This document shows positions 42,580 to 45,658 of a stretch of 49,458 bases of DNA, piece after piece. Made by a program: the position numbers and the translations under genes. Location of the stretch: contig JAADGE010000055.1 in the NCBI GenBank assembly GCA_013152535.1, positions 64,466-113,923 of the forward strand. Reading direction: 5' to 3'. Below the pieces are notes generated by a model, which saw nothing but the letters and a program-made list of their open reading frames with translations, made no database searches and was not told the DNA's origin. This DNA is from Chlorobiota bacterium (GTDB lineage Bacteria; Bacteroidota; Bacteroidia; Bacteroidales; JAADGE01). How positions within the stretch are numbered: the stretch's first letter is position 1; each line of letters opens with the position of its first letter.

Positions 42580-42645
42580 TTAACAGCCGCCTTCTTCTTC
42601 CTTTTTAGCTTTCTTTCTTATAACAGGTGCCGGAGTATTATCTTC
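42580..42645 (-). other. Shared GGC tail, copy A
   Basis: This stretch encodes DNTPAPVIRKKAKKEEEGGC and the stop. Comparable tails are encoded at about 43729-43794 and 44400-44468. Codons differ at several third positions among the three copies, so the peptide is similar while the DNA has drifted. Confidence 0.8.
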
Positions 42646-43701
42646 TTCAATATTATCTGAAGTTGAACCGGCAGTTTTTAAACTCGGAAGTTCGCCCTGT
42701 ACCATAGGATAATTTTTTATCATACTTCTATTAAAAGCATGGCCTATTTTCATACTTGTCAATTTTGAGTGCATAAATGAGTTCGCACCGTAGGTCAAAG
42801 CATATGCATCGTAACCGAGAACTTGCAAATAAGCAGCTGCAAAACTTGCATGCTGGCCGGTATAACAATAAATAACAATTTTTTTATCTTTCGGCAGTGT
42901 TAGTAAATCGGCATTAAGAACCAAACTTTGTTTGGGAGTATATTGAACGGCACCCGGTAAATGACCTTTTTTATAATTATATTCGGGCCAATAATTTATG
43001 ATATAATAATCGGAAGGGTTTTTCATTACCTTATCAATTCCGATTTCAAATTTCAATGTTTTTAATACCGTATCGGCTCGTGCTTCCAAGATATCATATC
43101 CGAGAGTTTTACCTGTTTTAATTTCGGGTAAACTTGTTTTCGGAAGTTTCGGGTTATCTTTTTTCTCCAATATTGAAGCATATTTGTCGGAAATTCGTTT
43201 AAGCCATTTTCCTTTTGCTGTGTTAACATCCCAAGAACTCATACCCCATTTCATAGAATAAACGTTTGAATATCCGAGCATTTGTAACATCATTGCAGAG
43301 AAGCTTGCTCTGTGTCCGGCATAGCAAACCATTACAATTTTATCGTATGTTCCTGCTGCAACATTTTTTTTCATATATGAAATTAAATCAGCCGGATTCA
43401 CATTAACTGCTCCGTTGATATGTCCGTTAACATAGTCATTATGTCGGCGAACATCAATTACCAGATATTTTTTTAAATTTGCTCGAACATTCTCTGCCGA
43501 AATTAGTGTAGGAATGCGTTTATTATTGATAAAATTTCCGGATTGTTCCAGAAATGTTATCAATTTTTCGTTTTCTTTAATTTTTCTCGGAGATTCCTTA
43601 ACAATTTTTTTATTTGTCGGGTTGTCGAATGAGCAAGAATTAAAACCGAATAAAATCGTTAACAATAATATTGATGAAATAAGATATTTTAAGATTTTCA
43701 T
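42580..43701 (-). CDS. Tandem-rhodanese lipoprotein with C-terminal GGC tail
   Basis: This 373-residue protein has a lipoprotein-type signal peptide (Cys23 in FNSC) and two rhodanese domains. The first (about 65-165) has the active loop CYAGHR with Cys126. The second (about 215-315) has CYTGQH with Cys279. Rhodaneses carry sulfane sulfur as a cysteine persulfide. The C-terminus is NTPAPVIRKKAKKEEEGGC with Cys373 as the last residue, a tail shared with the next two genes upstream. It is the last gene of the operon, 27 bases or so after its neighbour. It probably accepts or hands on sulfur at the periplasmic side; this is inferred from family and context. Confidence 0.88.
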   Translation of the reverse strand: MKILKYLISSILLLTILFGFNSCSFDNPTNKKIVKESPRKIKENEKLITFLEQSGNFINNKRIPTLISAENVRANLKKYLVIDVRRHNDYVNGHINGAVNVNPADLISYMKKNVAAGTYDKIVMVCYAGHRASFSAMMLQMLGYSNVYSMKWGMSSWDVNTAKGKWLKRISDKYASILEKKDNPKLPKTSLPEIKTGKTLGYDILEARADTVLKTLKFEIGIDKVMKNPSDYYIINYWPEYNYKKGHLPGAVQYTPKQSLVLNADLLTLPKDKKIVIYCYTGQHASFAAAYLQVLGYDAYALTYGANSFMHSKLTSMKIGHAFNRSMIKNYPMVQGELPSLKTAGSTSDNIEEDNTPAPVIRKKAKKEEEGGC

Positions 43702-43728
43702 TTCTGTAATTTTTAATATTGAACTATT

Positions 43729-44379
43729 TTAGCATCCGCCTTCTTCTTCTTTTTTCGCTTTCTTTTTTATAACCGGTGCCGGTGTATTCGAATCGGAAGA
43801 AGATGAAACTGAAGAATTCCCGCCGGTACTGTTTATTACAGCTTTAAAATCATATTTCGGTTTTTCGGCAGAATAATCACCGAGCATCGGAGAATATTTA
43901 TTAATGATATTTTGTGTTACATAATCATAGCCGCCGCCCAAAATATAATTATTTTTATACCCCAGTTGAGTTAAAATCATCCACGGACCGCATGCTCCGC
44001 ATTGATCGGAATAATACAACACATTTATTTTTTTATCTTGATTTACAATTTTCGCATATTCTTTATTCAGTATTTTTGACAGCGGAATATTAATTGCTCC
44101 GGGTAAATGACTAACTTGATAATCATGTGCCGATCGTAAGTCGATAAATCGATATAATGAATCGTGATTATAATAAATATCAAAAAATTTGTCATATTTA
44201 ATGATATAGTCATGTTTTAATGTTTTATTAAGCATTTCTTCGGTACTCAGGCGATAAACATGTTTTGGTTTTTCCATGCTTATTAAACCGAAAATGACTA
44301 TCGCAATAAATACAATACCGATAACGGGTAACTTTTTTGATATTTTTTTGCTTTCTAAACTAAAATTTTGATTATCCAT
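43729..44379 (-). CDS. Membrane-anchored rhodanese-fold protein with displaced cysteines and GGC tail
   Basis: The ATG at 44379 gives 216 residues; an upstream in-frame TTG at 44406 overlaps the preceding gene and is less likely. One membrane helix (about 17-34) anchors a periplasmic rhodanese-fold domain with FIDLRSAHDYQVSHLPGAINIPL and YILGGG. At the catalytic place the sequence is VLYYSDQCGACGPW: Tyr123 replaces the usual Cys, and Cys127 and Cys130 follow as a CxxC. The tail NTPAPVIKKKAKKEEEGGC ends in Cys216. Classic sulfurtransferase activity is doubtful; a thiol-redox or persulfide-passing role through CGAC and the tail is inferred. Confidence 0.85.
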   Translation of the reverse strand: MDNQNFSLESKKISKKLPVIGIVFIAIVIFGLISMEKPKHVYRLSTEEMLNKTLKHDYIIKYDKFFDIYYNHDSLYRFIDLRSAHDYQVSHLPGAINIPLSKILNKEYAKIVNQDKKINVLYYSDQCGACGPWMILTQLGYKNNYILGGGYDYVTQNIINKYSPMLGDYSAEKPKYDFKAVINSTGGNSSVSSSSDSNTPAPVIKKKAKKEEEGGC

Positions 44380-44399
44380 AATTTTTGAAATTAAGAAAT

Positions 44400-45053
44400 T
44401 TAACAACCGCCTTCTTCTTCTTTTTTGCCGCTTTTCTTTTTTATAATCGGAGCGGGAGCACTATTTTCTGCCGAGGCTGACGAAATTGTTCCGCCTCCGA
44501 AAAACATACTTGCTGCACGCCTGAAATTATACAACTCAAATTCTTTCTGCGAAGCTGTTTGAAGCGGCTTTTTCGGGCGAATTTCAGTTTCAATCCATTT
44601 ATTAAGTCCGCCTTTCATTACATAATTATTTTTATAATTCATTCGGCGAAGCAAAACCCAAGCCTGATTTGCATATACCGTTCCGTTCGAATAAAAAATA
44701 TTAGTTGCAATGTCTTGATTCAGAATATCTTCATATACATAATTTCCGTTTTTATCTTTATTCAGTATGCTGTCCAAGGGAATATTAACGGCTCCTTTTA
44801 AATGATATTTATTGTATTCGTCGGCACTTCTGACATCTATTAGTGTGGTATAAGCATCACCGTACATCATTTTTTGAGCAACTTCATCTGTTGTTACATA
44901 TCGAGTATCATCATTGATTGCTTGTAAAAGTTGTTCGGGTTTTAATTCTTTTGATGCGTGTTTTTCGGGTAGTAAAACCAAAAGCAATGCTAATCCGATA
45001 AAAACAACAGCCATAAAAATATAGCGTTTTTTTATAATACGTGTATCACTCAT
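44400..45053 (-). CDS. Membrane-anchored rhodanese-fold protein lacking catalytic Cys, with GGC tail
   Basis: This 217-residue protein has one N-terminal membrane helix (about 11-29) and a rhodanese-fold domain with TLIDVRSADEYNKYHLKGAV and YVMKGGLNKWI. The loop that normally starts with the catalytic Cys reads NIFYSNGTVYANQAW, with Ser122 at the catalytic place. The only cysteine in the whole protein is the last residue, Cys217, in PAPIIKKKSGKKEEEGGC. The retention of this single cysteine suggests that the tail, not the rhodanese pocket, is the working part. It lies 17 bases after the YeeE half-gene and 20 bases before its paralogue. Confidence 0.85.
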   Translation of the reverse strand: MSDTRIIKKRYIFMAVVFIGLALLLVLLPEKHASKELKPEQLLQAINDDTRYVTTDEVAQKMMYGDAYTTLIDVRSADEYNKYHLKGAVNIPLDSILNKDKNGNYVYEDILNQDIATNIFYSNGTVYANQAWVLLRRMNYKNNYVMKGGLNKWIETEIRPKKPLQTASQKEFELYNFRRAASMFFGGGTISSASAENSAPAPIIKKKSGKKEEEGGC

Positions 45054-45070
45054 AATTTATGAATTTGTAA

Positions 45071-45658
45071 TTAATATTTTTTTGACTTTTGAGAAACTTT
45101 TTGTTGAATATATGCCGTAGCGGCAAATGCAAAAATTGCAAATGCAACAAAAATCAGTAAAAATACTTCTCTGTTCATTCCAAGTGATTCATATATTTTA
45201 ACAGGTCCTTGATTTCCTGATTTATAAAACTTTTCATATAACGGATAAAAAGCATCAAAAATCACCACCCCGATTACAAAACCACCGAGAAATAACATTG
45301 CATCAATTTTTCCGATAGCTGAAGCACAGGCACTTGTACCCGGACAAAAACCGCCGATTACAAAACCAAAGCCCATAATTGCACCTCCCAATATTGCCGA
45401 GCCGGTATAAAAACGGTTTATCCATATTGCCGATAAATCAATCCATCCGAAATATTCAAAAAATAATAAGCCTATTGCTGCCGTAATTGCTGCTGTAAAA
45501 AAGACTTGCAGCACAACAAAATCATAACCGTAAAATACTCCGGCAAGTTTTCGCGAAGATGAAAATCCGGCACTTTCGAGTATATATCCGAAAGCTATTC
45601 CAATAACAAGAGCAATAACAAAACTCCATTCGTCGGATGCGTTAAATAATGGTCCCAT
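45071..45658 (-). CDS. YeeE/YedE-type sulfur transporter, second half
   Basis: This 195-residue membrane protein has about five helices and the YeeE signature GFVIGGFCPGTSACASAIGKID with the conserved Cys. YeeE/YedE proteins carry thiosulfate or related sulfur species through a line of cysteines. Classic members are single chains of about 350 residues with two similar halves; here this half and the gene at 45689 each carry one signature. They are separated by 30 bases. Together they probably form one pore importing sulfur substrate or product. Substrate is inferred from family and operon. Confidence 0.88.
   Translation of the reverse strand: MGPLFNASDEWSFVIALVIGIAFGYILESAGFSSSRKLAGVFYGYDFVVLQVFFTAAITAAIGLLFFEYFGWIDLSAIWINRFYTGSAILGGAIMGFGFVIGGFCPGTSACASAIGKIDAMLFLGGFVIGVVIFDAFYPLYEKFYKSGNQGPVKIYESLGMNREVFLLIFVAFAIFAFAATAYIQQKVSQKSKKY

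Follow-up and report, generated by a model that had tools for sequence, protein, structure and literature searches.

Rhodanese-fold proteins with a conserved terminal cysteine, encoded beside YeeE-type transporters and sulfur reductases in Bacteroidota: candidate sulfur-carrier arms

Why do three successive rhodanese-fold proteins end in nearly the same charged tail, with a cysteine (Cys) as the very last residue? The question is raised by an eight-gene operon in a 49,458-nucleotide stretch of a Chlorobiota bacterium (assembly GCA_013152535.1, contig JAADGE010000055.1, positions 64,466 to 113,923), referred to here as the window. The last three genes of the operon encode the proteins named P3, P2 and P1. 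As read from the alignments, the P3 family has kept the rhodanese fold, lost the enzyme thiol and retained the tail thiol. The tails are probably swinging sulfur-carrier arms in the periplasm, which would pass sulfane sulfur between sulfur reductases and the transporter YeeE. The three genes and their tails are placed as follows.

44400..45053, minus strand: P3, 217 amino acids (aa), with an N-terminal membrane helix, a rhodanese fold, Ser122 at the catalytic Cys position, a flexible arm and Cys217
44400..44453, minus strand: P3 tail, APIIKKKSGKKEEEGGC-stop
43729..44379, minus strand: P2, 216 aa from ATG, membrane-anchored and rhodanese-like, with a tail Cys
43729..43782, minus strand: P2 tail, PAPVIKKKAKKEEEGGC-stop
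42580..43701, minus strand: P1, 373 aa, a lipoprotein-like tandem rhodanese with a tail Cys
42580..42633, minus strand: P1 tail, PAPVIRKKAKKEEEGGC-stop

The common ending of P1, P2 and P3 is PAPxIxKKx(x)KKEEEGGC. Their final 17 residues are PAPVIRKKAKKEEEGGC, PAPVIKKKAKKEEEGGC and APIIKKKSGKKEEEGGC, each with Cys last, and the third tail has one extra residue between the Lys blocks. An earlier note on this DNA had described three rhodanese-fold genes with near-identical, Cys-ended tails, and the coordinates, the lengths and the matches to the Pfam family Rhodanese (PF00581) agree with this description. All three proteins score above the PF00581 cut-off of 22.2 bits (P1 111.5, P2 47.8 and P3 59.8 bits), and P1 contains two such domains. 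The start of P2 in the list of open reading frames (ORFs) is a TTG, which gives 225 aa instead of 216. The single tail formula of the earlier note holds for the overall pattern and is slightly idealised, given the longer third tail. Its statement that the peptide is kept while third codon positions differ is borne out by synonymous differences at the Gly-Gly-Cys end (GGC GGC TGT, GGC GGA TGC and GGC GGT TGT). In the 3.3 Mb genome, the pattern GARGGNGGNTGYTAR (E-G-G-C-stop) has exactly three matches, all of them at P1, P2 and P3, and the reversed-pattern control has none. A variant with one residue past the Cys has one further match (C13:8827) against 15 matches of its reversed control. Two more proteins of this genome were found to have rhodanese domains (C54, 471 aa; C56, 247 aa), and neither carries such a tail.

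An order-level search for P3 matches 120 of 295 genomes at an expectation value (E) of 1e-6, so the module is common in the order, although some weak matches may be other rhodaneses. A scan of named genomes confirms 226 relatives, 80 of which were retained; their labels are Bacteroidota-type, save five Chlorobi/Chlorobiota. The phylum scan has P3 matches in 93 of 345 genomes at E 1e-10. The first set of 180 loci (60 from the order, 80 named and 40 from the phylum) is one in which strong matches prevail. A second set of 28 loci, added from partial, weaker or previously unexamined matches, exposed tail losses and broken frames and brought the phylum genomes covered to 51 of 93, the rest of which sit mostly close to the E-value limit. 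Locus counts use a P3 score threshold of 60 bits, and proteins identical over the last 150 residues were removed as duplicates. None of 48 pattern matches in a single scan of viral contigs is a relative. The plasmid searches return a single matching record, a Gemmatirosa kalamazoonensis plasmid (L246 3700-6573), on which the two YeeE halves and a double rhodanese are encoded, together with a P3-like protein that has YSEG in its loop and ends in RRRGC.

P3, which is encoded after YeeE, ends in Gly-Cys plus zero or one residue in all 138 distinct sequences (122 GGC and 16 xGC). With duplicates still included, 21 of 152 sequences have a single residue after the Cys. The tail Cys is present in 86/86 clusters at 70% identity and in 39/39 clusters at 50%. 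It is the only alignment column fixed as Cys in P3 and the sole Cys of the ORF in 99 of the 138 proteins, as Cys217 is in the window P3. Among 13 added P3 sequences, 10 end in Gly-Cys, one ends in Gln-Cys (L337) and two have broken frames with the tail letters in another frame (L314 and L335). The combined counts are 148/151 for Gly-Cys and 149/151 for a Cys end, and the two misses are the broken frames. A 57-bit match below the threshold (L339) also ends in Gly-Cys. A terminal Cys that varied among orthologues had been taken by the earlier note as evidence against a carrier role; in P3 it is found in 138/138 and then 149/151.

The catalytic Cys position of the same 138 proteins is occupied by Ser (129), Ala (4), Gly (3) or Cys (2). 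In profile alignments, the P3 Ser pairs with the catalytic Cys of the solved rhodaneses 3d1p and 6mxv. The window P3 carries Ser in this loop and thus lacks the catalytic Cys that marks an active rhodanese sulfurtransferase. P1 retains both catalytic Cys loops (CYAGHRAS and CYTGQHAS) and, judged by these residues, may be such an enzyme. In the AlphaFold2 model of P3 (mean predicted local distance difference test score 85.6), a helix spans residues 4-27, the rhodanese elements at 39-184 are modelled with confidence and the arm at 188-217 with low confidence, and Foldseek with this model returns rhodaneses. An N-terminal hydrophobic stretch is present in 96% of the 138 P3 and 100% of 64 P2 proteins. 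The 20 residues preceding the P3 tail Cys have a mean net charge of +4.4, and the charge is positive in 92% of the 138. The loss of the active-site Cys from P3, as the alignments present it, is the most telling fact about this locus and was overlooked in the earlier note.

The tail phenomenon is broader than the earlier note stated. For P2, 61 of 64 sequences in the first set end in Gly-Cys, one ends in GSCG and two are without Cys; 7 of 10 are tailed in the added loci (combined 68/74). Cys stands at the catalytic position in 7 of 64 P2 proteins, where the loop alignment is uncertain, and the CGAC loop of the window P2 is not conserved across the family. For P1, the tail GGC is present in 26 of 40 sequences of the first set (13 are without it and one has a VCD end) and in 5 of 9 from the added loci (combined 31/49). 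In an alignment of 39 P1 proteins, the N-terminal Cys is present in 38, the two catalytic Cys in 35 and 37, and the tail Cys in 27; a stricter lipobox pattern is found in 24 of the 39. The tail also occurs on fusions of YeeE-B to a rhodanese domain (YeeE-B::rhodanese), in 28/28 of the first set and 12/14 of the added loci (combined 40/42). In three YeeE loci (L313 4102-4620, L316 1952-2467 and L317 3155-3622), short tailless P2-like proteins lie beside a P3 ending in GGCG or GGCE, and no reductase gene is seen within the 4-8 kb viewed.

The genes of the window operon are all on the minus strand, in the transcription order molybdopterin subunit, 4Fe-4S subunit, NrfD, YeeE-A, YeeE-B, P3, P2 and P1. 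The five genes upstream of P3 are listed here.

45071..45658, minus strand: YeeE-B, N-terminal half of a YeeE/YedE transporter (Sulf_transp), with the GGFCPGT Cys; PF04143, 56.1 bits
45689..46276, minus strand: YeeE-A, C-terminal half of a YeeE/YedE transporter, with the GRGCTSG Cys; PF04143, 78.1 bits
46245..47255, minus strand: NrfD/PsrC-type membrane subunit; PF03916, 174 bits
47325..47858, minus strand: 4Fe-4S electron-transfer subunit; PF13247, 81.7 bits
47897..49390, minus strand: molybdopterin oxidoreductase of the PhsA/PsrA kind; PF00384 and PF01568; 5' part lost at the contig end

The contig end coincides with the window end. The best NCBIfam model for the molybdopterin subunit, whose window copy is cut by the contig end, is PhsA (312.9 bits against a cut-off of 694). 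YeeE-A and YeeE-B both exceed the PF04143 cut-off of 27 bits. The best window score for NCBIfam TsuA is 35.2 bits against a cut-off of 400, each YeeE protein being half a transporter. No YeeD/TusA-type partner is found among the eight operon proteins scanned, the remaining genome not having been searched for one.

Linkage was counted in P3 loci whose contigs extend far enough to show the neighbour. The gene immediately upstream of P3 is YeeE-B in 125 of 130 loci; NrfD occurs in 111 of 119, and the molybdopterin subunit in 99 of 106. The co-occurrence of tails with NrfD and YeeE genes, which the earlier note had offered as a check, is found. In the five loci that depart from this adjacency, YeeE-B is either farther upstream, by 449-663 bases (three loci), or missing (L105 and L210). 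In L105, P3-P2-P1 (8001-10510) is preceded by 8 kb without YeeE or molybdopterin genes, holding GldG, LptC and an endonuclease gene. In L047 (5200-9269), the molybdopterin, iron-sulfur, NrfD and YeeE-B genes are each split into two ORFs, by assembly errors or decay, and the tailed P3 is intact. The GRGC Cys is present in 149/149 YeeE-A homologues and the GGFCPGT Cys in 126/127 YeeE-B homologues; these are the only near-invariant thiols of YeeE. Homologues of the molybdopterin subunit have a twin-Arg motif in 102 of 109 cases. The arms would be sited in the periplasm, to judge from this motif, the N-terminal Cys of P1 and the N-terminal hydrophobic stretches of P3 and P2.

The fusions have a different reductase partner. 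A multihaem cytochrome and a cytochrome b561 are encoded upstream of the fusion in 27 of 28 first-set loci and 13 of the 14 added ones (combined 40/42), for example at L213 9895-12134 and L089 4318-6565. The two fusion loci without a cytochrome in view are L226, where the fusion is inside a molybdopterin operon, and L322, where little upstream sequence is covered. The L213 cytochrome, the sole protein scanned, belongs to the octaheme tetrathionate-reductase family (TIGR04315, 590 bits, cut-off 375), and eight CxxCH motifs are present in 35/35 octaheme homologues found by phmmer. There is no octaheme gene in the window, whose contig ends at the molybdopterin gene. Three close relatives of the window (L096, L097 and L102) have both systems, with the octaheme gene divergent and placed before the molybdopterin gene. 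Two loci, L051 (7602-8684) and L071 (2287-3336), encode a second P1 next to the octaheme gene; its tail is acidic (YVEEGEV..GGC), whereas the molybdopterin operon of the same locus has Lys-rich tails.

Tails resemble one another within an operon. Across 54 loci in which both P3 and P2 are tailed, the 12 residues before Gly-Gly have 61.4% identity between the two proteins of a locus, and 27.7% after shuffling of loci (standard deviation 1.7; maximum 35.6% among 10,000 shuffles); this test and the comparison of tail type by partner ignore phylogeny. Identity 14-26 residues upstream is 21.9% against 11.4% shuffled, and farther out it is near background (10.3% against 8.6%). The number of residues past the Cys agrees between P3 and P2 in 52 of 54 loci, and P3 and P1 tails (19 loci) are 59.2% identical against 33.3% shuffled. 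The tails of P3 and P2 from one locus are more alike (61.4%) than the P3 tails of nearest genomes (45.8%, p 5e-4). The bodies, by contrast, are 64% identical between P3 proteins of nearest genomes and 31% between P3 and P2 of one locus. Where tail residues are identical, the same codon is used in 307 of 553 cases (0.555), against 0.522 expected from codon usage. Since this is near expectation, it is mainly the peptide that is held, and recent gene conversion as the source of the matched tails is not supported. Hydrophobic residues at positions -7 to -3 average 1.82 in 28 octaheme-type tails and 0.48 in the 137 other P3 tails (p 1.5e-11), a trend that holds within the order (1.75 vs 0.51) and in other classes (1.85 vs 0.32). 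The Lys/Arg count is reversed (3.21 in octaheme-type and 4.59 in other tails). As far as these comparisons go, the tails evolve in concert within an operon and differ by reductase partner.

The tail was not found on unrelated proteins among the pattern matches of the order. Of 149 genomes searched there, 38 contain E-G-G-C-stop, with 59 matches in all, every one of which was traced. The reversed pattern has about 80 in those genomes (a hand count), and the raw match number is not enriched; what is informative is the subset that terminates a genuine reading frame. For 26 of the 59 matches the frame exceeds 45 aa, and 26/26 are these rhodaneses; the remaining 33 close frames of 0-43 aa. The tail is absent from the YeeE-A, NrfD, iron-sulfur and molybdopterin proteins in the first 60 loci and from eight weak rhodanese matches. 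The other ORFs with a length of 150 aa or more number 1,501, spurious ORFs and duplicated contigs included; a single one of them ends in Gly-Cys plus 0-2 residues. In L090 (16896-17405), a short rhodanese-like protein with an SSGGCGD end lies about 6 kb off the tailed operon. The earlier note had held that tails on unrelated proteins would speak against a carrier arm, and among frames longer than 45 aa in the 149 genomes all 26 are on these rhodaneses.

What the sequences show is the conservation of the tail Cys, the loss of the catalytic Cys, the linkage and fusion to YeeE, two alternative reductase partners, and tails that change together within an operon and vary with the partner. From these, the tails are probably periplasmic arms of the following kind, with the location, the sulfur cargo and the order and direction of transfer being presumed. 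P3, and less strictly P2 and P1, would be kept at the membrane, either through a helix at the N terminus, through a lipid anchor (in P1) or through fusion to YeeE. The rhodanese fold of P3, its own thiol lost, may serve as a docking body, from which a flexible arm with many Lys, Gly, Ala and Pro residues would extend, ending in Gly-Gly-Cys. The terminal thiol would take up sulfane sulfur as a persulfide, polysulfide or thiosulfonate, supplied either by inorganic sulfur compounds or by the rhodanese domains of P1, which are intact. The loaded arm would present this sulfur to the local reductase (the molybdopterin, iron-sulfur and NrfD complex here, the octaheme cytochrome elsewhere), to the mouth of the YeeE pair, or to both, and the near-invariant YeeE cysteines may be the next stations. 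The terminal thiol could be a common currency that an operon's paralogues share and that is fitted to the reductase at hand. A fuller version is possible and on balance doubtful: that in Bacteroidota and at least one member of the Gemmatimonadota the arm evolved independently on an inactivated rhodanese, is tuned to the nearby reductase and ferries protein-bound sulfane sulfur between YeeE and that reductase, be it the molybdopterin complex or the octaheme cytochrome, and that arm-borne sulfur is the octaheme substrate.

Several observations weigh against carrier arms. The tail is present in only 31/49 P1 and in 68/74 P2 proteins, one P3 has the Gln-Cys end noted above, and the fusions of L318 and L322 are real tail losses, each with a tailed P2 next door. 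Acidic arms exist, and EEE adjoins GGC in the three window tails. One genome (G588, L210; 99% complete) has the molybdopterin, iron-sulfur and NrfD genes and EEGGC-tailed P3 and P2 without a PF04143 match; because its tails occur without a detectable YeeE, YeeE is not an obligatory partner. The sampling is skewed to strong matches (74 order-search loci, and phylum loci from 51/93 genomes). The tail-by-partner test takes no account of phylogeny, and the 'Mo-type' tails in it are all P3 outside octaheme loci, regardless of their molybdopterin genes. The carrier-arm proposal of the earlier note is supported in part: the conserved P3 Cys and the failure to find the tail on unrelated proteins speak for it, and the many tailless P1 proteins and the two of 42 fusions that lost the tail qualify it. 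Its assignment to a PsrABC/YeeE system fits the usual neighbours and does not cover the 40 of 42 fusion loci with an octaheme cytochrome instead, or G588.

An alternative is that the tail Cys forms stable disulfides which join the rhodaneses, YeeE or the reductase into an assembly. Operons with two to four tailed proteins and matched tails would suit such a tether, as would a Cys position that is strict although the arm varies. Many loci, however, have a single tailed protein, P3 is without another invariant exposed Cys, and little would be gained, since membrane anchors or the YeeE fusion are already present; a tether is unlikely. An arm that moves electrons, for example by reducing disulfides or persulfides of YeeE or the reductase, is improbable as well. 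The tail Cys is a lone Cys without a resolving partner in 99 of 138 P3 proteins, and no thioredoxin-type gene is among the family matches of the window operon, neighbours elsewhere not having been surveyed for one. A mobile thiol would be capable of this chemistry in principle, and TsoB, a rhodanese/DsbD-like family, is weakly matched in its rhodanese part (40.8 bits against a cut-off of 805).

The tail could also be a C-terminal signal for sorting, cleavage or lipidation, since a brief end motif common to paralogues is what known sorting tags look like. E-G-G-C-stop was searched for in this genome and in 149 from the order, and the outcome does not favour such a signal: 26/26 in-frame matches longer than 45 aa are these rhodaneses and none is on an unrelated protein. 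The extra residue after the Cys in 21/152 P3 proteins (duplicates included) and the N-terminal anchor of every tailed protein count against it too. It is very unlikely; the earlier note, too, had ranked a sorting or attachment signal below a carrier arm. The near-identical tails within one operon might finally reflect shared ancestry or recent gene conversion alone, with no function in the tail. This is extremely unlikely: codon agreement is 0.555 (307/553) against the 0.522 predicted by codon usage, and the Cys persists phylum-wide and on the Gemmatimonadota plasmid though the arm changes. The conservation in P3 contradicts a functionless tail, barring a badly biased sample.

The sulfur-carrier arms proposed here have precedents. 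The GGCGG end of SoxY has a sulfur-binding function according to passages of PMC6067878, where a SoxY peptide swinging arm is named in a reference title. The likeness, as far as these passages go, is that Gly-Gly-Cys sits at a mobile chain end in a sulfur system of the periplasm; the fold is unrelated, and the SoxY Cys is followed by Gly-Gly, whereas here the Cys is last or next to last. The window proteins have no Pfam or NCBIfam match to SoxY or SoxZ and end in GGC or GGCx, not GGCGG. The likeness to SoxY drawn in the earlier note is one of principle and does not extend to the domain, the GGCGG end or the fold. DsrC, in the parts of PMC3397948 used, binds sulfur through a penultimate Cys on a flexible C-terminus, which resembles P3; the fold of DsrC/TusE is unrelated, the pathway is cytoplasmic, and no DsrC domain is matched by Pfam or NCBIfam in the window proteins. 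Lipoate-binding LbpA proteins have a conserved near-C-terminal Cys, often Gly-flanked, which the authors compare to SoxY in the same passages of PMC6067878, on a lipoyl domain unrelated to P3. By these comparisons, SoxY and DsrC are mechanistic precedents and not relatives, and the tailed rhodaneses belong to neither.

Sud is a periplasmic sulfur donor to polysulfide reductase and acts via its rhodanese Cys. Like other single-domain rhodaneses, it shares the fold of P3, whose profile matches the sulfide dehydrogenase 1qxn at E 3.6e-6 and 1e-4; the difference is that P3 is without the rhodanese Cys. For YeeE-type transporters, excerpts report that C17 of StYeeD binds sulfur species (PMC11073785) and propose transfer from SoxYZ to SoxT, a YeeE-like transporter (PMC11582611). 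YeeE/TsuA with YeeD, and SoxT, are alike in pairing such a transporter with a Cys-bearing sulfur partner, so far as these excerpts extend. YeeD is a cytoplasmic TusA-type protein and the partner here is a rhodanese on the predicted periplasmic side; unlike YeeE/TsuA, YeeE is split here into two genes. No description of terminal-Cys rhodanese arms or of YeeE::rhodanese fusions was found in the titles and abstract openings returned by searches of the open-access literature.

In both the Sox and the Dsr sulfur pathway, the central device is a thiol at a mobile end. If the arms carry sulfur, they would be a third solution on an unrelated, inactivated enzyme fold, and the device would have evolved again. 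The YeeE-type transporters would gain a defined protein partner outside the cytoplasm. To our knowledge, the natural role of the octaheme tetrathionate-reductase-family cytochromes is uncertain; these would gain a conserved sulfur-handling partner, and their physiological substrate, should the more doubtful version also hold, would be sulfur carried on an arm and no free small molecule.

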